From positions 744,001 through 808,000 of the forward strand of contig NC_020388.1 of assembly GCF_000591055.1 (NCBI RefSeq): a stretch of DNA of 64,000 nucleotides. The letters are read 5' to 3'. Below are positions 10,709 to 63,621 of this stretch, piece by piece. This DNA comes from Natronomonas moolapensis 8.8.11. GTDB lineage: Archaea; Halobacteriota; Halobacteria; Halobacteriales; Haloarculaceae. A program made the translations under genes and the position numbers. Each line of letters begins with the position of its first letter. Position 1 is the stretch's first letter. A model generated the notes under the pieces. That model did no database searches and was not told the DNA's origin. It worked only from the letters and a program-made list of their open reading frames with translations.

Positions 10709-12457
10709 ATGAACGTAGAGGAGTACTGGGGGATCGGCCCGAAGACCAAAACGGTCCTCGAGGAGTCGATCGGGACCGAGGCCGCCATAGAGGCGATCGA
10801 GGCGGGCGACGTCCGGACGCTCGTCGAGGCGGGCGTCGACCGAAGCCGGGTGACGCGCGTACTCAGACACGCCCAAAGCGCCGACGGGATGGCGCTCTTG
10901 GCGACCCGCGACGCCCGGCTAGTTTATAAAGACCTTCTCGATTCGATCGCCAAACTCGCCGTGAGCGAGGCGGCCGCCGACCGGCTCCGGACGCTGACGC
11001 CGCTGGCCGACCGGTCGGCTATGGAGGCCCGTCTCGACGCCGTCGAGCGCGGGCGGGCGGGCTGGAACGCCCTCGACGACGACGACAGGACGGCGGTGCT
11101 CGGGACGTTCGAGCGCTACGACGACGCTGCCGGCCGGATCGCCGCCGTCGAAGCGGCGGTCGAGTTGGCCGAGATCGACACCGAAAGCGCCGTCTTCGAT
11201 CCGATCGCCGGCCTCGATACGGACGCGCTGGCCGAGGCGGCGGTGGCGCTCGAAGCTCTCGGCGACGACCGGATCGCCCGGGGGGCCGACGACGAACTCG
11301 ACCGGCTCCGGGACGCCCGCGAGACCCTCGACCGGCTCTCGGCGAATGCGGAAGGGGTCCTCGAGGAGCTGCGATCGGACGGCGTCGACGACAGCACGGC
11401 CTTTCGCGAGGGGCTCGTCGAGTACCTCCGCCGGGAGACGACCGTCGATCCGGCCCGGGTCCGCTCGGCGATGGTCGACGAGGCCGTCGACGCCACCGGG
11501 TTCGTCACCGAGACGCTCCGGGCGCTTCGGTCGGATCTGGAGGCCGCCATCGGGGAGCGCTCGGCGGCCGTCCGCGCCGACCTGGAGGCGGCCGTCGAGG
11601 CGGCGGGCGAGGACGTCGGGCGCGCCGAAACGGCCGTGACGACGGTCGCGCGCGAACTCTCCGTGGGCCGATTCGCGGCGGCCTACGACCTCCGCCGCCC
11701 CCGCTACGTCGACGACGAGGGCCTCGCGGTCGTCGGCGCGCGGAACCTCGGGCTGCTCGACGCCGGCGTCGACCCGCAGCCGATCACGTACGCGGTCGGC
11801 GAGCACGGCCTCGACGCCCCGGCCGGCGAACGAGTAACGGTGCTCACGGGGGCCAACAGCGGCGGGAAGACGACGCTTCTGGAGACGCTGTGTGCCGTTG
11901 CGGTTCTCGCCCATATGGGCCTGCCCGTCCCGGCCGACGCCGCCGAGATCTCGGTCCTCGATCGGCTCGTCTTCCACCGGCGACACGCGAGTTTCAACGC
12001 GGGCGTCCTCGAGTCGACGCTGCAGTCGGTCGTCCCGCCGCTGGTCTCCGGCGACCGGACGCTCATGCTGGTCGACGAGTTCGAGGCCATCACCGAACCG
12101 GGGCGGGCGGCGGACTTACTCGGCGGTCTCGTCCGGCTGTCGATCGCCGAGGGCGCCATCGGGACGTTCGTCACCCACCTGGCGAACGACCTCGAACCCC
12201 TCCCGGAGTCGGCGCGAACCGACGGTATCGTCGCCCGCGGGCTGACCGACGACCTCGAGTTGGAGGTCGACTACCAACCCCGCTTCGGCGAGGTGGGCCG
12301 CTCGACGCCGGAGTTCATCGTCTCGCGGCTGGTCGCGAACGCGGGCGACCGCGCCGAGGAGGCCGGCTTCCGGACGCTCGCGGCGGCGCTGGACACCGAG
12401 ATGGTCCAACGAACCCTCTCGGACGCGGCCTGGACGGCGCTCGACGGATCGGAGTGA
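10709..12457 (+). CDS. MutS-family ATPase with N-terminal helix-hairpin-helix (MutS5/MutS2-like)
   Basis: A 582-residue MutS-core protein without the mismatch-recognition domain. The N-terminus (YWGIGPKTKTVLEES) is a helix-hairpin-helix DNA-binding motif. A long helical lever/clamp region follows, and the ATPase has Walker A GANSGGKTT near residue 381 and Walker B LVDEFEAIT near 453. A dimerisation helix ends the protein. The absence of a GxFYE wedge and of an Smr nuclease domain separates it from MutS1 (also in this window) and from bacterial MutS2. A role in recombination intermediates or branched DNA is inferred from the family. It is divergent from the ferredoxin gene. Confidence 0.85.
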   Translation: MNVEEYWGIGPKTKTVLEESIGTEAAIEAIEAGDVRTLVEAGVDRSRVTRVLRHAQSADGMALLATRDARLVYKDLLDSIAKLAVSEAAADRLRTLTPLADRSAMEARLDAVERGRAGWNALDDDDRTAVLGTFERYDDAAGRIAAVEAAVELAEIDTESAVFDPIAGLDTDALAEAAVALEALGDDRIARGADDELDRLRDARETLDRLSANAEGVLEELRSDGVDDSTAFREGLVEYLRRETTVDPARVRSAMVDEAVDATGFVTETLRALRSDLEAAIGERSAAVRADLEAAVEAAGEDVGRAETAVTTVARELSVGRFAAAYDLRRPRYVDDEGLAVVGARNLGLLDAGVDPQPITYAVGEHGLDAPAGERVTVLTGANSGGKTTLLETLCAVAVLAHMGLPVPADAAEISVLDRLVFHRRHASFNAGVLESTLQSVVPPLVSGDRTLMLVDEFEAITEPGRAADLLGGLVRLSIAEGAIGTFVTHLANDLEPLPESARTDGIVARGLTDDLELEVDYQPRFGEVGRSTPEFIVSRLVANAGDRAEEAGFRTLAAALDTEMVQRTLSDAAWTALDGSE

Positions 12458-12519
12458 CCGTCCGCCCGACGGCACCGCCGAGGCGGTAGGCATTTCTTCG
12501 GCCCACCACACCCCAGCGT

Positions 12520-14631
12520 ATGGACAGAAAGCGGGCGATGACGAGCGTCGACCTCGCCGCGCTCGTCGGCGAGTTGCGGGAGTACACCGGCGCGGTCGTC
12601 GACAAGGCCTACCTCTACGGCGACGACTTCGTCCGGTTGAAGATGCGCGATTACGACCGCGGCCGGATCGAACTCGTCGTCGAGACGGGCGATCCCAAGC
12701 GGGCCCACGTCGCCGTCCCCGACCACGTCGCCGACGCCCCGGGGCGGCCGCCGAACTTCGCGATGATGCTCAGAAACCGCATCGCGGGCGCGAACTTCGA
12801 GGGCGTCGAGCAGTACGGCTTCGACCGCATTCTCACCTTTCGTTTCGAACGCGAGGACGCGACGACGCTCGTCGTCGCGGAACTGTTCGGCGACGGCAAC
12901 GTCGCCGTGATGAACGAGGACAGAGAGGTCATCGACTCTCTCGACACCGTCCGGTTGACCGCCCGGACGGTCGCGCCGGGATCGCAGTACGGCTACCCCG
13001 ACGAGCGGTTCAGCCCCCTCGATTGCGACGGCGAGGCCTTCGCAGCGCGGATGGCCGACTCCGATACCGACCTCGTTCGCACGCTCGCGACGCAGCTCAA
13101 CTTCGGCGGCCTCTACGCCGAGGAGCTGTGTACACGCGCCGGCGTCGAGAAGACGATGGACATCGAGGAAGCGACCGAGGAGCACTACGAGGCGCTCTAC
13201 GGCGCGCTCGAGCGTCTCCGGGAGCCGATCCTCGAGGGCCGGACCGATCCCCGGCTCTACGAGACCGACGACGGCGACGTCGTCGACGCGACGCCGCTTC
13301 CGTTGCGGGAACACGAGACAGAGGGCTACGACGCGACCGCCTTCGAGAGTTTCAACGGCGCGATCGACGAGTACTTCTATCGGCTCGAAACCGAGTCCGA
13401 GACCGAAGAACAGGCCGGCGCCGGGACCGACCGCCCCGACTTCGAGTCCGAGATCGAAAAATACGAGCGGATCATCGAACAGCAGGAGGGCGCGATCGAG
13501 TCCTACGACGAGCAGGCCGACGAGGAACAGCGGAAGGCCGAATCCCTCTACGGCAACTACGATCTGATCGACGAGATCTGCTCGACGGTTCGGGCGGCCC
13601 GCGAGGACGGCGTCCCCTGGGCGGAGATCGAGGAGACGTTCGAGGCCGGTGCCGAGCGGGGCATCGAGGCCGCCGAGGCGGTCGTCTCGGTCGACGGTGC
13701 CGAGGGGACGGTGACCGTCGATCTGGGGGACGGCCCGATCGAGTTGGACCCGACCGTCGGCGTCGAGCGCAACGCCGATCGCCTCTACACCGAGGCCAAG
13801 CGCGTCCGCGGGAAAAAAGAGGGCGCACAGGCCGCCATCGAGGACACCCGCGAGGACCTCGCCGCAGTCGAGCGCCGCCGCGAGGCGTGGGAGGCCGAGG
13901 ACGCCGACGAGGGCGAGGACGAAGACGACGACGCCGAGACCGACTACCTCGCCGTGTCGTCGGTCCCCGTCAGGTACGACGAGAAGTGGCACGAGCGCTT
14001 TCGGTGGTTCCGGACGAGCGACGGCTTCCTCGTGATCGGGGGGCGAAACGCCGACCAGAACGAGGAGCTGGTCAAAAAGTACATGGACCCCTCGGATCGG
14101 TTCTTCCACGCGCAGGCCCACGGCGCGCCGGTGACGATTCTGAAGGCGACAGAACCGGACGAACCGGCCCGCGACGTCGACATCCCGGAGACGAGCAAAC
14201 GCGAGGCCGCCCGCTTTGCGGTGTCGTACTCCTCCGTCTGGAAGGACGGCAAATTCGAGGGTGACGTCTACGAGGTCGACGCCGATCAGGTGTCGAAGAC
14301 GCCCGAGAGCGGCGAGTACGTCGAGAAGGGGAGCTTCGTCATTCGCGGTGATCGAGAGTACTACCACGACGTCTCCGTCGGCGTCTCCGTCGGCATCAAG
14401 TGCGAACCCGACACCCGCGTCGTCGGGGGGCCGCCGTCGGCCATCGATTCGGTCGCTGCGACGTCGATCCGGATCGAGCCGGGAGAGTACGCCCAAAACG
14501 ACATCGCAAAGCGGCTCTACCGGACGTTCCGCGAACGCTTTACCGACACGAGCTTCGTCCGCAAGGTCGCAAGCCCCGACCGGATCCAGGAGTTCTGCCC
14601 GCCCGGGGGGAGCCGAATGGTCGACGAGTGA
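12520..14631 (+). CDS. rqcH: RqcH/NFACT family ribosome quality-control factor
   Basis: A 703-residue archaeal homologue of Rqc2/NEMF/RqcH, which binds stalled 50S subunits with peptidyl-tRNA and recruits tRNA for C-terminal tailing. NFACT-N is at about 1-250, with an invariant Asp-Arg (YGFDRIL, D102-R103) equivalent to the DR pair needed for tRNA binding. A helical/coiled-coil middle spans about 280-460 and includes a very acidic stretch. NFACT-R begins near residue 493 (RWFRTSDGFLVIGGRN). The length is normal for haloarchaea. It lies one gene from pelota and in the same window as Cdc48, other stalled-ribosome factors. The ATG at 12538 is an alternative start. Confidence 0.9.
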   Translation: MDRKRAMTSVDLAALVGELREYTGAVVDKAYLYGDDFVRLKMRDYDRGRIELVVETGDPKRAHVAVPDHVADAPGRPPNFAMMLRNRIAGANFEGVEQYGFDRILTFRFEREDATTLVVAELFGDGNVAVMNEDREVIDSLDTVRLTARTVAPGSQYGYPDERFSPLDCDGEAFAARMADSDTDLVRTLATQLNFGGLYAEELCTRAGVEKTMDIEEATEEHYEALYGALERLREPILEGRTDPRLYETDDGDVVDATPLPLREHETEGYDATAFESFNGAIDEYFYRLETESETEEQAGAGTDRPDFESEIEKYERIIEQQEGAIESYDEQADEEQRKAESLYGNYDLIDEICSTVRAAREDGVPWAEIEETFEAGAERGIEAAEAVVSVDGAEGTVTVDLGDGPIELDPTVGVERNADRLYTEAKRVRGKKEGAQAAIEDTREDLAAVERRREAWEAEDADEGEDEDDDAETDYLAVSSVPVRYDEKWHERFRWFRTSDGFLVIGGRNADQNEELVKKYMDPSDRFFHAQAHGAPVTILKATEPDEPARDVDIPETSKREAARFAVSYSSVWKDGKFEGDVYEVDADQVSKTPESGEYVEKGSFVIRGDREYYHDVSVGVSVGIKCEPDTRVVGGPPSAIDSVAATSIRIEPGEYAQNDIAKRLYRTFRERFTDTSFVRKVASPDRIQEFCPPGGSRMVDE

Positions 14632-14697: not shown

Positions 14698-15822
14698 ATG
14701 CTCAGGGAGGCGCTCGACTACCCGACGCGGTCGCCCGAAGGGGGGCGTTCGGTCATCGTCGGCGGACTGGTCCTCGTCGTCATCACGGCCTGTCTCGGCG
14801 TTGCGGCGCTCGGCGCCCCGTACGCGTACGCCGCCGCGTTGGGTCTCCTCCCGTGGCTCCTCGTGCGGGGCTACTACGTCCGCGTCGTCCGCACGTCGAT
14901 CGGGCGCGAGCGCCCGACTCCGCCGCGGTTCGGCGACGTCCGACGACTGTTCCGCGACGGCGCGGTCGCAGTCGGGATCTCGGCGGTGTATCTGCTGCCC
15001 GGGTCGGTCGTGCTCGCCCCGCTGGTCGGCGTTCGAGCGGCCGGGACGGACGTCTCGGCGGTGTTGCTCGAGCGCGCTGTCCCCGGGGCTGCCGCGACCG
15101 CGGCCACCTCGCTGACGGGCGTCGCCGCCGTCGTCGCGCTCATGTACGCCATCGGCGCGCTCTACGTCCTCCCGGTGGCGGTCGCCCGGTTCGCCCACTC
15201 GAATCGCGTGCGCGCCGCCTTCGAGATCGGACCCGTCGTTTCCGGAGCCATCAGCGAGGATTACGCCACCGCGTGGGGGATCTCGATCGCCTTGCGGCTG
15301 TTCGTGCTTCCGTTCACGTACCTGCTTCGGCTCCTCCTCGTCGGGTTCTTCCTCCAGTTTCACGTTTCGACCGGCGCTCGGTACTGTTACGGCCAGGGCG
15401 CGGGGGCCGCGCTCGGTCTCGATGCGGTTCCCGCGACCCACGAACGGAGCGACCCCGAGGAGTGGGCTGCCCGACCCGCCGTCTCGCGCGTCCCGGCCCG
15501 CGATGGAGGGATCGGGAGTCGACGGCAACGGCCGGGACGCGGCGACCTCACACCGGCGGTGCGGCGGGTGACGGAGGGCGTCACCGACGCTGGTGCCGAG
15601 ACCGACGGCGGTTCCGGGGCCGGGCGGTCGCCGGGGGCTTCGAATGTGACCGACGGCGGCTCCGGGCCGGGAGGGGACGGCGCTTCCGAGGGCGACGGCG
15701 ATGCGGGGGGCGACGCGGACGCATCGGAGTCGCGGGGCTTCGACGGCGGGTTCCGACCCGCTATCGGCCCGGTCGAACGAGGCGGCGACACCGACGGCCG
15801 GGACGGGCACACGCCGGAGTGA
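14698..15822 (+). CDS. DUF4013 integral membrane protein with disordered C-terminus
   Basis: A 374-residue protein starting MLREALDYPTR, the characteristic DUF4013 opening. Hydrophobic segments at about 19-60, 90-115, 130-165 and 190-225 give four to six membrane helices, with RGYYVRVVRTSIG as the conserved loop. The last ~130 residues are Gly/Asp/Ser-rich and probably cytosolic. GAATATAAAG at about 14666-14674 supports a leaderless start. DUF4013 function is unknown. A second family member, fused to a zinc ribbon, is in the accessory segment at 61470. Confidence 0.85.
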   Translation: MLREALDYPTRSPEGGRSVIVGGLVLVVITACLGVAALGAPYAYAAALGLLPWLLVRGYYVRVVRTSIGRERPTPPRFGDVRRLFRDGAVAVGISAVYLLPGSVVLAPLVGVRAAGTDVSAVLLERAVPGAAATAATSLTGVAAVVALMYAIGALYVLPVAVARFAHSNRVRAAFEIGPVVSGAISEDYATAWGISIALRLFVLPFTYLLRLLLVGFFLQFHVSTGARYCYGQGAGAALGLDAVPATHERSDPEEWAARPAVSRVPARDGGIGSRRQRPGRGDLTPAVRRVTEGVTDAGAETDGGSGAGRSPGASNVTDGGSGPGGDGASEGDGDAGGDADASESRGFDGGFRPAIGPVERGGDTDGRDGHTPE

Positions 15823-15885: not shown

Positions 15886-16953
15886 ATGCGCATCGCCGAC
15901 CGCGAGGCCGCCGAGGGGGGCCGCGAACGGATCACCGTCGTCCCCGAGAGCCTCGACGACCTGTGGCATCTCACCTACATTCTGGAACCCGGCGACGCCG
16001 TCTCGGGCGACACCACGCGCCGAATCCAGCGCGACGACGACATGACCCGCGACACCGGCGGTCAACGCGAGCCGATGTGGCTCGCACTCGAGGTGGCCGA
16101 TGTCGAGTTCGCGAAGTTCGCCAACCGCCTCCGGGTCGGCGGCGAGATCGTCGAGTGCTCGCGAGAGGACCAACTCGACTTCCACCACACGTTCAACGTC
16201 GAGGAGCACGACGAGATCACGATCGAGAAGGTCTGGCAGGTCGACCAACTGGAGCGGCTTGAGGAGGCCGTCGAGACTGCAGAACAGCCCGACGTCGCCA
16301 TCGCGACCGTCGAGGAGGGCGAGGCCCACGTCCACACCGTCGCCCAGTACGGCGTCGAGGAGCGCGCGACGATCACCGGGACGACGGGGAAAAGCGAGTA
16401 CGCTCGCGGCCGCGACGAACTGTTCGAGGAGTTGGCCGCGATCCTGAAACGCCTCGACGTCGAGGCGATTATCCTCGCCGGCCCGGGGTTCACCAAGCGA
16501 GACGCCCTCGATCACATCGAGGAGGACGCCCCGGAGGCGGCCGGAAAGATACAGACCGTCGACACCGCGAGCGTCGGCGACCGCGGCGTCCACGAGGTGT
16601 TGAAACGCGGCGCGGTCGATCGCATCCAGACCGAGACCCGCATCTCGAAGGAGGCCGAATACATCGACGAACTGATGGAACGGATCGCCGAGGGAGCCAA
16701 AGCCGCCTACGGAATCGATGAAGTGGCTGAGGCCGCCGAATACGGGGCGGTCGAGACGCTGCTCGTCCTCGACGAACGGCTGCGGGAGGAACGCGCCGGG
16801 GAGGGCGAGTGGGCACGCGACGTCAACGACGTCATCTCGGACGTTGAGCGACAGGGCGGCGACGTGGTCGTCTTCTCCCACGAGTTCGACCCCGGCCAGC
16901 AACTCGGGAACCTGGGCGGGATCGCGGCGCTGTTGCGCTATCGGCTGAACTGA
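15886..16953 (+). CDS. pelA: mRNA surveillance protein Pelota
   Basis: The archaeal Dom34/Pelota, which enters the empty A site of stalled ribosomes and works with aEF1A and ABCE1 to split them. The N-terminal Sm-like domain (1-~130) contains [14 protein letters not shown] and a Thr/Arg-rich loop. The central eRF1-like domain begins near 130, and the C-terminal domain (from ~260) has the L7Ae-like fold. There is no GGQ motif, as expected for Pelota. At 355 residues it has family length. CTTATTATC near 15859-15867 gives a leaderless start. Its proximity to rqcH suggests a ribosome-rescue neighbourhood. Confidence 0.95.
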
Positions 16954-58713: not shown

Positions 58714-58988
58714 TTACACCCCGTCGACGAGACGCTCGAGGTGCTCCGGCGGGACCGCCCCGCGGGCGGCGTGGTCGTCGTAGACGAACGTCGGAACGCC
58801 CGTGATGCCCTCGCGTTTCGCCTCGGCGAAGCGCTCTCTGACCTCGGCCCGGAGTGCGTCGTCTGCGAGCGCCGAGCGCACTTCCTCGGCCCCGACCCCG
58901 GCGTCCGCCGCGAGCTCGACCAGTAGGTCGGCATCGCCGATGTCCTCACCCGCCTGCCAGAGCGCGTCGAAGACCGCCTCGTCGAAAC
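58714..58988 (-). pseudogene. DsbA/FrnE-like oxidoreductase truncated by IS6
   Basis: The fragment reads YRFDEAVFDALWQAGEDIG, then DADLLVELAADAGV, then FAEAKREGITGVPTFVYDD, ending ERLVDGV. This is the C-terminal part of a DsbA-family (FrnE/2-hydroxychromene isomerase-like) oxidoreductase, including the cis-Pro loop GVPTFV. Everything upstream, including the CxxC active site, is replaced by the IS6 end at 58989. A readthrough frame into the IS is an artefact. The missing part should lie beyond the right edge if the flanking IS copies came in together. Confidence 0.8.
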
Positions 58989-59685
58989 GGTAGTGTTCAC
59001 ATAAGCTGATTCCATGCGAAGGCGAAGGATCGAAGCCAATCGTCGGCGGTGTCTGCTTCGGCATTGCTGAAACAGTTTGAAAAACTGATAGTTCGTCGTT
59101 TTACCTCTCGAAAGACACGTTCGACGCTATTCCGATTTCCATGGCGTTCATATCTGAAATCGAGGCTATGGCGGCGACAGGCGTCTTTCAGTGAGTGCGA
59201 GCCATCTATGAGAAACACCGCGTCGTCAACGTCGTGTTTCTCGCGGAGTTCGGCAAAGAATGCGTGAGCGATTGCCTTGTTTGTCGTCGGTTCAAGCGTT
59301 GTATACAGTAATTTGTTTGTCTCAGGATCGACAGCAGCATACAGCCAGTACTGCTCATCATTGAGTCGGATCACGGTCTCATCCACCGCAACGTGATCCG
59401 GATCCCGACCAGATTCGGGCTGTAGATCTGCCCTGTGAACCCAGTTGTGAACAGTAGATCGAGCTCGACTGACACCGAATATCTCAAGGATAGAAATGGT
59501 ATTCGAAAGTGATAGGCCAGCTAAATGGAGTTGAATACCAAGCTTCATCAGTAATTTCGGTGTCGCTTCTCGCTCCACAAAACCTAACTCGATCTCGTCC
59601 AAATGGCCGTTGAGGCGGGCGTTTTTGGGCATAGAGCACTCAAAAAATGTACCGCCTCACTTTTCATTCTTATCTGAACACCGCC
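58989..59685. mobile_element. IS6-type insertion sequence, copy 2 (minus orientation)
   Basis: 697 bp, with GGTAGTGTTCACATAAG at the left edge (one base different from copy 1) and the inverse GGCGGTGTTCAGATAAG at 59669-59685. The outside 8-mers, GTCGAAAC (58981-58988) and TATTGACC (59686-59693), do not match, so this copy is not a simple insertion. It is a junction between core DNA and the accessory segment. The transposase is intact. Confidence 0.92.
58997..59632 (-). CDS. IS6-family DDE transposase (copy 2)
   Basis: 211 residues, full length, with the triad D (HVAVDETVIR), D (VFLIDGSHSL) and E (NSVERVFREVKRR). About 26 positions differ from copy 1, including NGHLDEIE for NDNLDEID and REVKRRTIS for REIKRRTTS, so these are distinct isoforms rather than a fresh local duplicate. 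The stop lies within the terminal repeat. Confidence 0.92.
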   Translation of the reverse strand: MPKNARLNGHLDEIELGFVEREATPKLLMKLGIQLHLAGLSLSNTISILEIFGVSRARSTVHNWVHRADLQPESGRDPDHVAVDETVIRLNDEQYWLYAAVDPETNKLLYTTLEPTTNKAIAHAFFAELREKHDVDDAVFLIDGSHSLKDACRRHSLDFRYERHGNRNSVERVFREVKRRTISFSNCFSNAEADTADDWLRSFAFAWNQLM

Positions 59686-59858: not shown

Positions 59859-59924
59859 TTATTACTTTGATTGAAGCACGTGAAGGTGGTTTTTATGTTG
59901 TTCGAGCGTTTTATGTCCGATTAA

Positions 59925-60740
59925 ATGACTTTTGACGATGATTCGTATGCTGACGTCGTCAAGACGTTGTTTGGGCGACGTGATGTGATGGAGCAGTTAG
60001 TGAAGCGTCCGATGGATAAATCGGAGCTGATTGATACGACCGGCACATCCCGGTCGACGGTCACCCGTGCACTCAAAGATCTCCAGACGGTCGATCTTGT
60101 GGAGCAGGCCAACGGTGAGTATGTCCCGACACCGTATGGCGAGTTCATATACAGCCAGTTCGTCAGCTTGGCTGATGTCGTCGAACTCGGTGATGAGATC
60201 CAGACGTTGCTGCCACACCTGCCACTGGAGGATTTGACATTCGATCTGGCCCACTTGGCTGATGCTGAGATCACGTTCGTGAGCCGGGTTGAACCAGCCG
60301 CTCCACTTGAACGGGTCGGTGAGCTCAAACAGGGTGCTGCCCGGTCACGGACACTTGCAAGCGGGAAGAACCCGGTTGGCCTAGAGGCACACTATGATGC
60401 TGTTGTGAATCAAGGACAACGGTTCGAGGCGGTCTGTCCACCCGCATTATTCGACGCGACAGCTGCAGACAGCGACCAACGGGCGATGATGCTCGACCTG
60501 TTGGAGTATGATGTGGCCCAGTTCTACGTCGCTGAGGATACCATACCGGTCCCGCTCGGAATCGTCGATGACATCGTGTTCTTCGGGGTTGAAAACGAGC
60601 AGGGATCACCGCTGGCACTGATCGAGACCACTGATCCGAACGTCCGACGCTGGGCGGAAATCGAGTTCACAACCGTTCGCGACCAGGCTACACAGCTGAC
60701 CCGTCATGACTTCGAACATGACTGGCCACGACAGGACTGA
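59925..60740 (+). CDS. Winged-helix regulator with FilR1 domain
   Basis: A 271-residue haloarchaeal regulator. The N-terminal winged helix (about 12-70) contains KSELIDTTGTSRSTVTRAL, then LVEQANGEYVPTPYGEFI. The C-terminal FilR1-type sensor (about 90-260) has LADAEITFVSRVEPAAPLE, FEAVCPPALFDA and IVDDIVFFGVENEQGSP. The family is large in haloarchaea, and ligands are unknown. TTTTTATG near 59890-59897 places an almost leaderless start. Codon use is less GC-rich than in the core genes. It precedes, in the same direction, the three-gene operon and is its likely regulator. Confidence 0.85.
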   Translation: MTFDDDSYADVVKTLFGRRDVMEQLVKRPMDKSELIDTTGTSRSTVTRALKDLQTVDLVEQANGEYVPTPYGEFIYSQFVSLADVVELGDEIQTLLPHLPLEDLTFDLAHLADAEITFVSRVEPAAPLERVGELKQGAARSRTLASGKNPVGLEAHYDAVVNQGQRFEAVCPPALFDATAADSDQRAMMLDLLEYDVAQFYVAEDTIPVPLGIVDDIVFFGVENEQGSPLALIETTDPNVRRWAEIEFTTVRDQATQLTRHDFEHDWPRQD

Positions 60741-60828
60741 ACCCAAGATTTATATAACGGTCTTCGGCTTGTGAACGGATTTACCGCTCGATGACATATT
60801 AACCGTCTCCTAATGACCTACGATGTAA

Positions 60829-61476
60829 ATGAGTGGGTCTAGCAACGCATCAATCGATGGACGGCATCGTGGCTCTTCGATCCAACGGAGACGGTTCATC
60901 CAGGCCACAGTGATCGGTGTTCTTACAGGGTTGGCCGGTTGCTCCGGTGATTCCCCCGATACCGAAGGCTCGAACGGTGATCAGGACTCCACTGATACGG
61001 AGAATCCTGCTGATAGCGATCCCACAACGACACCGGATCAGGGTGCTAACGGGCCAGGGCCAGAGGAGACCTCGACGCCGGAGGCCACCGACACACCAGC
61101 TGAACCAGGTGAGGACGGCACCGGAACGAGCCAGTACGAGCCACGTGAGGGGTGTACGCTCGTCACCTCGACCGAGATCGAGCGTGATGAAACTGTGACG
61201 GTGTATCCGATCAACGGTGACCCTGAGACAGAGGGGATGCGGCTTACCTACCAGCGAATCGATGCTGAGGGGCAAGCAGAGATCCGCGTTGCGTTCATCG
61301 ATGGACTCACCCTCGACCATTATTTGAATGAAGGCCAGCGGCTGGATATCGGTCCAGTCACTGGTATCGAGCTGACCGGCCTCGGGGAGGACCAGATCCA
61401 GGTACAGTTCCTCCGGGTACCGGAGGAGTATGACGCCCGTAGCGAGTGGGAACCTGCTGAGGTGGAACTATGCTGA
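60829..61476 (+). CDS. Tat-type lipoprotein of the accessory operon
   Basis: 215 residues. A twin-arginine motif (RRRFIQA, residues 20-26) is followed by a hydrophobic core and the lipobox LAGC (C38). The next ~65 residues are Thr/Asp/Gly/Pro-rich linker. A folded domain follows (CTLVTSTEIERDETVTVYP, RLDIGPVTGIELTG) of beta type, with a Cys at each end of the domain (about residue 107 and the final C215), possibly a disulfide. ATATTAAC near 60796-60803 is the TATA candidate. It overlaps the next gene by 7 bp. No known family is recognised. Confidence 0.75.
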   Translation: MSGSSNASIDGRHRGSSIQRRRFIQATVIGVLTGLAGCSGDSPDTEGSNGDQDSTDTENPADSDPTTTPDQGANGPGPEETSTPEATDTPAEPGEDGTGTSQYEPREGCTLVTSTEIERDETVTVYPINGDPETEGMRLTYQRIDAEGQAEIRVAFIDGLTLDHYLNEGQRLDIGPVTGIELTGLGEDQIQVQFLRVPEEYDARSEWEPAEVELC

Positions 61477-62978
61477 GAGATGCCCTCGCCTATCCCCGGA
61501 GCGATGGGCAGTGGCTCCGCCGGCTTGGTATCGGCGGTGTTGTGATCCTTGGGAGTTTCTTGCTTGTCCCCTTGTTCATCTTTTTCGGGTACATCGTTCG
61601 TGTCCTCCGCTCTGTCACAGCGGGCCAAACCACACCACCGGACTTCGACGGGATCGGCTCCCTCACCGTTGACGGGATCAAATTCTACGGGATAACATTC
61701 GCCTATGGTCTCCCGGTCATCTTGATCCCGATTTTTGCCGGGGCCTTTGGCCAGGCACTCGGCCTCGGTACTTCTGTCGCTGGATCTGATCCCGGAGCCG
61801 GGCCGGTCGCAACATCCATCATCGGGCTGTTACTGTTGGGAACTGTCGTGGCCGGTGCTGTTTCCTTCTACTCCGTCCCGGCTGCTGTCTGCCATTTTGC
61901 CTACACAGGATCGATGAAAGCCGCCTTCGATGTCCGAACCGTTGTCGGCACGGTCAGTTTCTCGGGGCCGTACCTCAAGGCATATTTCCTCACTGCAGTC
62001 ATCGGAATCGTGTTGTTCCCTGTTGTTGCGGCCCTCAGCGTGGTCCTCGTCGGTATCTTTATCGCTGTCTATCAGGCCCTGGTCGCAGGATATCTCATCG
62101 GGAACGGGTATGCAGTCAGTCGAAACCTGCCACAGGACGGCCACACTATCGTCCCAGGAACGACACCGGCGGGAGCTGGTCAACAGACCGGCCGAGATGC
62201 TGCTGGACAGGGAGACACCACCCCGGAGCCCACGACACCAACCACCGGGGCAAAGGCTACCCAGTCAAGCAGTGGTGCCTGTCCGGAGTGTGGGCGGTCA
62301 GTTGGTACTGATGCCTCATTCTGTCCGGACTGCGGGACCGAAATCACCCACGTCGGTGATACAGGTGAGGATACGACCGGTGGACCACAGCCACCGACCG
62401 ATTCCGCCGGTACGTCCGGTCAACGGACTACTGACGGACAGACCGTCGCCGCTCAACGTGACGAGGCGACGTCCGGTCCACAGGCGGTTACCCAGACAAG
62501 CCAGGGGACAGATCCACATCCAGAGCATGACCCAGATGGTGTAGAACCGGATTCCGCTCCTGACAGCGGTGACCCGGACGAGACCGATGCAGCATCATCG
62601 TCCCCGGCACAGGTATCACAGGACCAACTCTACACCGACGAGACAGGCACGACATACGTCGAGACATCGATCGGGCCGGATAAACAGCTCCACGTCGACA
62701 GTGATGGCCATCATTTCTATCAACGCGGTCGGGCGATGCGGGCAGTGTCCGGTGGTTTCACGATCATCTGTGCCGGGTTCGCCCTGTTCGCGTTCTTTAT
62801 GCTTCCCGGTATGGCTGGGGGACCGAATGCTCCCCGTGGCCGATTCTTCTTTGCACTCATCGAGGCCATCCCCTTCGGGAACGTACTCATCGGTCTTCTC
62901 GCCATCTGGATCGGCTCCCGCCTTGCCTACATCGCATACACCGGACGAGAGTATATGGACGTCGAAGAGACAGACTAA
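61470..62978 (+). CDS. DUF4013 membrane protein fused to a zinc ribbon
   Basis: 502 residues. The first ~215 are DUF4013: MLRDALAYPRSDGQWL, six hydrophobic stretches, FFGYIVRVLRSVTAG. A Thr/Gly linker leads to a zinc ribbon, C271xxC274 and C285xxC288 (ACPECGRS, FCPDCGTEI). A further ~90 residues are Thr/Gln/Asp/Ser-rich. The C-terminal domain has two helices (FTIICAGFALFAFFMLPG and FGNVLIGLLAIWIGSRLAYI). The core-genome DUF4013 at 14698 has no ribbon, so this is a derived architecture. It overlaps the lipoprotein gene and precedes another zinc-ribbon membrane protein. Confidence 0.82.
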   Translation: MLRDALAYPRSDGQWLRRLGIGGVVILGSFLLVPLFIFFGYIVRVLRSVTAGQTTPPDFDGIGSLTVDGIKFYGITFAYGLPVILIPIFAGAFGQALGLGTSVAGSDPGAGPVATSIIGLLLLGTVVAGAVSFYSVPAAVCHFAYTGSMKAAFDVRTVVGTVSFSGPYLKAYFLTAVIGIVLFPVVAALSVVLVGIFIAVYQALVAGYLIGNGYAVSRNLPQDGHTIVPGTTPAGAGQQTGRDAAGQGDTTPEPTTPTTGAKATQSSSGACPECGRSVGTDASFCPDCGTEITHVGDTGEDTTGGPQPPTDSAGTSGQRTTDGQTVAAQRDEATSGPQAVTQTSQGTDPHPEHDPDGVEPDSAPDSGDPDETDAASSSPAQVSQDQLYTDETGTTYVETSIGPDKQLHVDSDGHHFYQRGRAMRAVSGGFTIICAGFALFAFFMLPGMAGGPNAPRGRFFFALIEAIPFGNVLIGLLAIWIGSRLAYIAYTGREYMDVEETD

Positions 62979-62997
62979 CCGATCCGGAGACAATCAG

Positions 62998-63621
62998 ATG
63001 TACTGTCACAACTGCGGCACAGAAACGACAGACCACCAGACCTACTGTACAGACTGTGGTGCCGAACTCGTCTACCAGTCTCCTTCCACCGGTCCCGAGC
63101 AAGAGACCACCGTTACACCGCCAGGATCAGCTGAACCGGGAAGCTCGGACCACGAAGACACTGAGCAACGAACCGATCACCAGGACAACGCAAGATCGTC
63201 CGAGAAGCGATCACCAGAGCGAGAACAGACAGCCTCGGAGACAGCACAACCCGTATCGACCACAGCCTCCGACGAACCCGACAGATCGGACCAAGCCCGT
63301 GAATTAGCCAGCAACGCGTTGTTCGGCTACAGCTTCATCATCCTATTCAGACTGACCGGTATCAGCGGAATCCTGTTCCAACCCCATGCTGAGAACCCGT
63401 TTTTCGCCACCGCCCTCCACGATATCGGTGTCTTCGTCTTCTATGACGGCTTCCTCCTCGCCATCACCGCCTTCCTCACAAGTGCCTACCTCACAGCACG
63501 ACACCACCTCGACCTGGGCCTCCCCGCTGACACACGTAGCCAGCTTGACACAGTCGCAACCATCGGGCTCTCCGGCTCGTCCCTGCTGTATATCCTCGGG
63601 ATCCTGCTTTCACTCGCGTAA
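62998..63621 (+). CDS. Zinc-ribbon membrane protein
   Basis: 207 residues. An N-terminal zinc ribbon (C3xxC6, C17xxC20; YCHNCGTETTD, YCTDCGAEL) matches the one in the preceding protein. A disordered linker of ~75 residues (Glu/Thr/Ser/Asp) leads to four hydrophobic segments (FGYSFIILFRLTGISGILF; LHDIGVFVFYDGFLLAITAF; SSLLYILGILLSLA). CGGAGA 9 bases before the ATG is one of the few Shine-Dalgarno-like sites in the window. It is the last gene of the operon. Confidence 0.78.
   Translation: MYCHNCGTETTDHQTYCTDCGAELVYQSPSTGPEQETTVTPPGSAEPGSSDHEDTEQRTDHQDNARSSEKRSPEREQTASETAQPVSTTASDEPDRSDQARELASNALFGYSFIILFRLTGISGILFQPHAENPFFATALHDIGVFVFYDGFLLAITAFLTSAYLTARHHLDLGLPADTRSQLDTVATIGLSGSSLLYILGILLSLA

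Follow-up and report, generated by a model that had tools for sequence, protein, structure and literature searches.

DUF4013 (PF13197) denotes a membrane core of four to five helices that is encoded on haloarchaeal chromosomes, and the core alone is common, being found in 57 of 116 genomes of the family considered here at E ≤ 1e-14. Our literature search returned a single paper that mentions DUF4013, on cotton fibre traits. Haloarchaea also encode zinc-ribbon proteins with transmembrane (TM) helices (Zn_Ribbon_1, DUF7575/DUF7577 type), several per genome in the genus of interest, and a Gram-positive zinc-ribbon membrane protein, TcaA, offers a further point of comparison. Among winged-helix regulators, FilR1 itself is a methanogenesis regulator described in Methanosaeta (PMC3991700). 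Here we compare with these systems a gene cassette of Natronomonas moolapensis 8.8.11, located in a window of 64,000 nucleotides, by which we mean the whole stretch of DNA analysed (positions 744001-808000 of a single-contig 2.91 Mb genome).

The initial annotation of the window described a membrane operon at 60829-63621, in which a FilR1 regulator is followed by three genes in one direction, for a Tat lipoprotein, a ribbon-bearing DUF4013 protein and a second zinc-ribbon membrane protein. All three ORFs were recovered on the plus strand at these coordinates, and the regulator ahead of them (59925-60740) lies above both Pfam cut-offs (HVO_A0261_N, 60.7 bits against 35; FilR1_middle, 60.5 against 27). 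The genes for the lipoprotein and the DUF4013 protein overlap, as had been noted, and share 7 nt; the gap between the DUF4013 gene and that for the zinc-ribbon 3-TM protein is 19 nt, so that co-transcription of the three genes is likely. Because the N-terminus and promoter region of the regulator survive, colinear, in a relic of the cassette in a genome of another family (G135, locus L048), the regulator is, on sequence evidence, part of the cassette, which comprises four genes at about 59885-63621. The features of the cassette and its borders are as follows.

58714-58988, minus strand: C-terminal fragment of a DsbA-like gene, matching PF01323 at profile positions 105-189 and nowhere else; its ORF continues up to the IS end at 58989
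58989-59685, minus strand: left copy of an IS6-family insertion sequence, with its transposase at 58997-59632 (NCBIfam transpos_IS6, 195.6 bits)
59885-59924, plus strand: putative promoter region of the regulator, with a TTTTTAT box, conserved in G135; similarity to L048 begins here
59925-60740, plus strand: FilR1-type winged-helix regulator (HVO_A0261_N and FilR1_middle, by Pfam), with an N-terminal relic in G135
60749-60757, plus strand: TATA-like box TTTATATAA ahead of the lipoprotein gene, read from the sequence
60795-60803, plus strand: second TATA-like box CATATTAAC ahead of the lipoprotein gene, likewise read from the sequence
60829-61476, plus strand: predicted Tat lipoprotein, 215 aa, with RRRFIQ, lipobox LAGC38, a T/P/E-rich linker and a predicted all-beta mature domain (residues 100-215)
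61470-62978, plus strand: DUF4013 membrane protein, 502 aa, with DUF4013 at residues 28-190, a zinc ribbon at 271-291 and a C-terminal 2-TM domain at 379-502
62998-63621, plus strand: zinc-ribbon 3-TM protein, 207 aa, with an N-terminal ribbon (residues 2-24), a linker and three TM helices
63791-64000, minus strand, continuing past the window end to about 64486: second IS6 copy, 90% identical to the left copy and in the same orientation

The export signature of the lipoprotein can be read directly from its translation, where the twin-arginine motif RRRFIQ is followed by the lipobox LAGC with Cys38. By inspection, RRRFIQATVIGVLTGLAGC places the twin-arginine motif before a hydrophobic stretch that leads to the lipobox cysteine; export is predicted, in agreement with the exported, lipid-anchored domain first proposed. 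Beyond the T/P/E-rich linker lies a mature domain of about 110 residues, with one cysteine near either end, for which a single-sequence AlphaFold model predicts an all-beta fold of 10 strands (pLDDT 82.7, pTM 0.75). Searching with this domain among the 392 genomes of the order returned only itself, and full-length matches in 280 of 293 genomes were rejected as reflecting the Tat signal and the low-complexity linker. A PDB fold search gave no match at E ≤ 0.001.

The DUF4013 protein matches PF13197 along nearly the whole profile (positions 2-167 of 168; 109.6 bits against a curated cut-off of 26.9, E 1.9e-31), though the AlphaFold model of this core is too poor for a fold search (pLDDT 55). At residues 271-291 it carries a CxxC-CxxC ribbon, which scores just under the Zn_Ribbon_1 cut-off of 25 (PF13240) in the protein scan (24.4 bits) and above it in the genome scan (29.1 bits). 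An acidic linker then leads to a two-helix TM domain at the C-terminus (about 124 residues), 80% identical in G135. As had been observed, the DUF4013 gene on the chromosome (14698-15822 in the window) lacks a ribbon, and no ribbon was found in the 31 other DUF4013 loci inspected; matches to the cassette protein in genome contigs and viral contigs were discounted as lone ribbons. These comparisons support a ribbon-bearing variant that was seen elsewhere in the order in one relative only.

The 3-TM protein begins with a ribbon (residues 2-24) that scores 27.9 bits for Zn_Ribbon_1, above the cut-off of 25, and continues with an acidic linker and three TM helices. Weak profile matches to its TM domain in two genomes (G122 and G201) were rejected, as by appearance they are unrelated, metal-dependent-hydrolase-like membrane proteins. 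The two cassette ribbons belong to one class, sharing by inspection about 8 of 22 residues, mostly the Cys/Gly framework. That part of the earlier interpretation stands, and its corollary, that the shared ribbon marks a common partner or mutual binding, is weakened. A census of the genus gave roughly 2-11 ribbon matches per genome, many of them belonging to small membrane proteins, and a further genome (G286) also encodes two ribbon membrane proteins side by side. With such proteins this common in the genus, and at times encoded next to each other, a shared ribbon says little about whether the two bind one another.

We consider the four-gene set to be best explained as a regulated accessory envelope complex, horizontally acquired, a reading held tentatively and with somewhat less than even confidence. 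Here, the products would form one envelope assembly, in which the lipoprotein, its beta domain already folded, would leave by the Tat pathway and become anchored on the outer face, while the DUF4013 protein and the 3-TM protein would be membrane-embedded and keep their zinc ribbons on the reducing, cytosolic side. There the ribbons could dock with one another or with a cytosolic partner, and the FilR1-type regulator, from its own promoter, would switch the set on upon some signal. Given the rarity of the set and its decay through transposon insertion, the likeliest benefit would lie in maintaining or sensing the envelope in a particular niche, not in a core function.

The main rival holds that IS6 elements gathered a loose, decaying set of accessory genes, in which the DUF4013 and ribbon proteins would be a functional pair and the lipoprotein and regulator passengers, with no complex formed; we regard this as a real possibility, albeit a doubtful one. 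The cassette is found in 2 of the 392 genomes of the order, and the distinctive domains of the lipoprotein, the DUF4013 protein and the 3-TM protein occur in 1, 2 and 3 of them respectively, each count including the genome of the window. The co-occurrence of all three families, which the initial annotation proposed to score across haloarchaea, was seen in no other intact set, and the lipoprotein is lost from or absent in the only relatives. In G135 (contig C24), a decayed copy lies on the minus strand at 10336-13140 of L048, colinear and in the same orientation. There, regulator residues 1-30 and the sequence upstream of them (13140-13010, 78% identical in DNA) come first, followed by a TnpB-type element (11587-12960), then DUF4013-protein residues 306-502 and, last, the complete 3-TM ribbon protein; the regulator body, the lipoprotein and the DUF4013 core have been lost, with the TnpB-type element in their place. 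Such breakage, and a lipoprotein found in no other genome, count for this rival; against it, the relic still has the N-terminus and promoter region of the regulator in their order, and the lipoprotein gene overlaps that of the DUF4013 protein. With the lipoprotein deleted in G135 and none found beside the second relative, this overlap is what ties it to the cassette.

The comparison with G135 also provides pairwise dN/dS estimates, which are approximate, being drawn from short segments at dS 0.6-0.9: 0.08 for the ribbon of the 3-TM protein, 0.15 for its TM domain, 0.13 for the C-terminal domain of the DUF4013 protein and about 0.7 for the linkers. On these estimates the ribbon, TM and C-terminal domains are under purifying selection and the linkers drift, and since this codon-level selection is measured against an independent copy, the cassette is not a product of chance.

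The second relative, in a genome of the window's own family (G341, L088 8251-9612), is a 3-TM protein homologue encoded directly behind a different ribbon-bearing multi-TM protein and beside a fumarase-like gene; no lipoprotein or regulator match lies next to it. Apart from the window itself, it is the only intact relative of the 3-TM protein seen in that family. A common origin of its partner and the DUF4013 protein was rejected, as BLAST similarity is confined to the ribbon. The arrangement suggests that two ribbon membrane proteins pair recurrently, though the ribbon census of the genus tempers this; a ribbon-TM protein that stands beside another partner also counts for the passenger reading.

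The initial annotation placed the cassette on a mobile segment, and lateral movement is supported by base composition and by IS6 elements on both sides. GC content is 49-60% over most of the island and mostly 66-74% outside it, and the left IS6 copy truncates the DsbA-like gene. Insertion of the whole island into dsbA was rejected, since what comes after the second IS6 copy is an SDR-like gene and not the N-terminal part of dsbA. No matching 8-bp target duplications, outer or inner, were found at the two IS6 ends; a composite transposon, with near-identical IS copies and a target-site duplication, was likewise rejected at 90% identity between the copies. Because no target duplications tie the two copies together, we describe the island as bounded by IS copies, a composite transposon not being demonstrable, and the best explanation of the sequence is that the cassette was acquired horizontally and is carried in this IS6-bounded island. 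Across the genome, one IS6-family element is represented about 25 times, as copies or fragments, at 73-100% identity, two of them 100% identical, and this copy number and identity spread show repeated transposition bursts. Both the abundance of the element and the missing duplications round the island count for the rival of IS6-driven gathering. Nevertheless, we keep the envelope complex as the best explanation. Counting for it are the packed co-directional genes, the Tat/lipobox signature, the predicted all-beta fold and the Pfam matches, and further the colinear relic in G135, the dN/dS of domains versus linkers, the ribbon pairing in G341, the island GC and the IS6 borders. Counting against it are the absence of the lipoprotein from the relatives, a G341 partner that shares the ribbon alone, adjacent ribbon pairs elsewhere and the poor DUF4013 core model.

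A mobile module for defence, competition or superinfection exclusion at the envelope, in line with the transferable function that had been suggested at the outset, appears improbable. The cassette is mobile, rare, strain-specific and envelope-located, and the lipoprotein domain is weakly fold-similar to small viral beta proteins (TM about 0.5), including His1 virus ORF23 (E 0.007, TM 0.45), although these matches are uninformative. PADLOC returned no system match, giving only short partial matches of at most 17.3 bits on the helix-turn-helix and the low-complexity linker; plasmids, phage records and viral contigs held no relatives of the distinctive parts, the one viral match being a lone ribbon; and profile scans found no toxin or nuclease domain. 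Neighbouring defence or secretion genes, for which the earlier interpretation proposed to look elsewhere, were not noticed beside the G135 and G341 copies. Beyond mobility and rarity, positive evidence for such a role was not found.

We give a similarly low probability to a reading in which the cassette copy is a mobile branch of a ribosome-rescue-linked membrane factor and has gained a ribbon that might bind a translation or quality-control factor. On the chromosome, the window's DUF4013 gene is flanked by an NFACT/RqcH gene (12520-14631) and a Pelota-type gene (15886-16953), all three on the plus strand with gaps of about 65 nt, and Pfam confirmed both the NFACT identity and eRF1 domains 1-3 of the Pelota-type protein. 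Of the 32 DUF4013 loci fetched from two families (L002, L051-L081), 23 have RqcH, PelA or both no more than 1.5 kb away, a biased figure rather than a general estimate, as these loci are the best matches to the window protein. Tandem DUF4013 pairs occur in six loci of family genomes (L053, L054, L059, L064, L071 and L073), some of them between rqcH and pelA. The linkage, on which our literature search found no paper, hints that DUF4013 may be a membrane factor tied to ribosome rescue, and the cassette copy falls beside the linked genes in a tree (88/60 support, long branch). However, linkage is not function, the tree position is weak and the cassette itself is nowhere near rqcH or pelA. Least probable of all, and far from being favoured, is a transferable membrane-spanning module in which a ribbon-bearing, rescue-linked DUF4013 derivative would couple a cytosolic translation or quality-control partner, across the membrane, to the surface lipoprotein. 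Given the repeated position of haloarchaeal DUF4013 genes between rqcH and pelA, one can test directly whether DUF4013 acts in membrane-associated ribosome rescue.

Several components of the cassette have described counterparts from which they depart. The regulator is about 30-34% identical to many plasmid-borne haloarchaeal regulators of the FilR1/HVO_A0261 type, but the methanogenesis context of Methanosaeta FilR1 is absent here. TcaA likewise has an N-terminal cytosolic-type ribbon followed by TM sequence, yet the ribbon alone matches, the full-length equivalog model scoring 10.8 bits against a cut-off of 550. The DUF4013 protein shares the membrane core of its chromosomal relatives, to which it is 29-40% identical, and differs in its extra zinc ribbon and conserved C-terminal 2-TM domain. 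Haloarchaeal zinc-ribbon TM proteins similarly carry a short CxxC-CxxC ribbon at the end or in a linker and are numerous within the genus, whereas the TM domain of the 3-TM protein was found in only three of the 392 genomes of the order. Laterally moving and selected, the cassette combines two undescribed conserved membrane domains with one orphan exported domain, and it recombines known building blocks in a rare arrangement rather than forming a recognisable new system.
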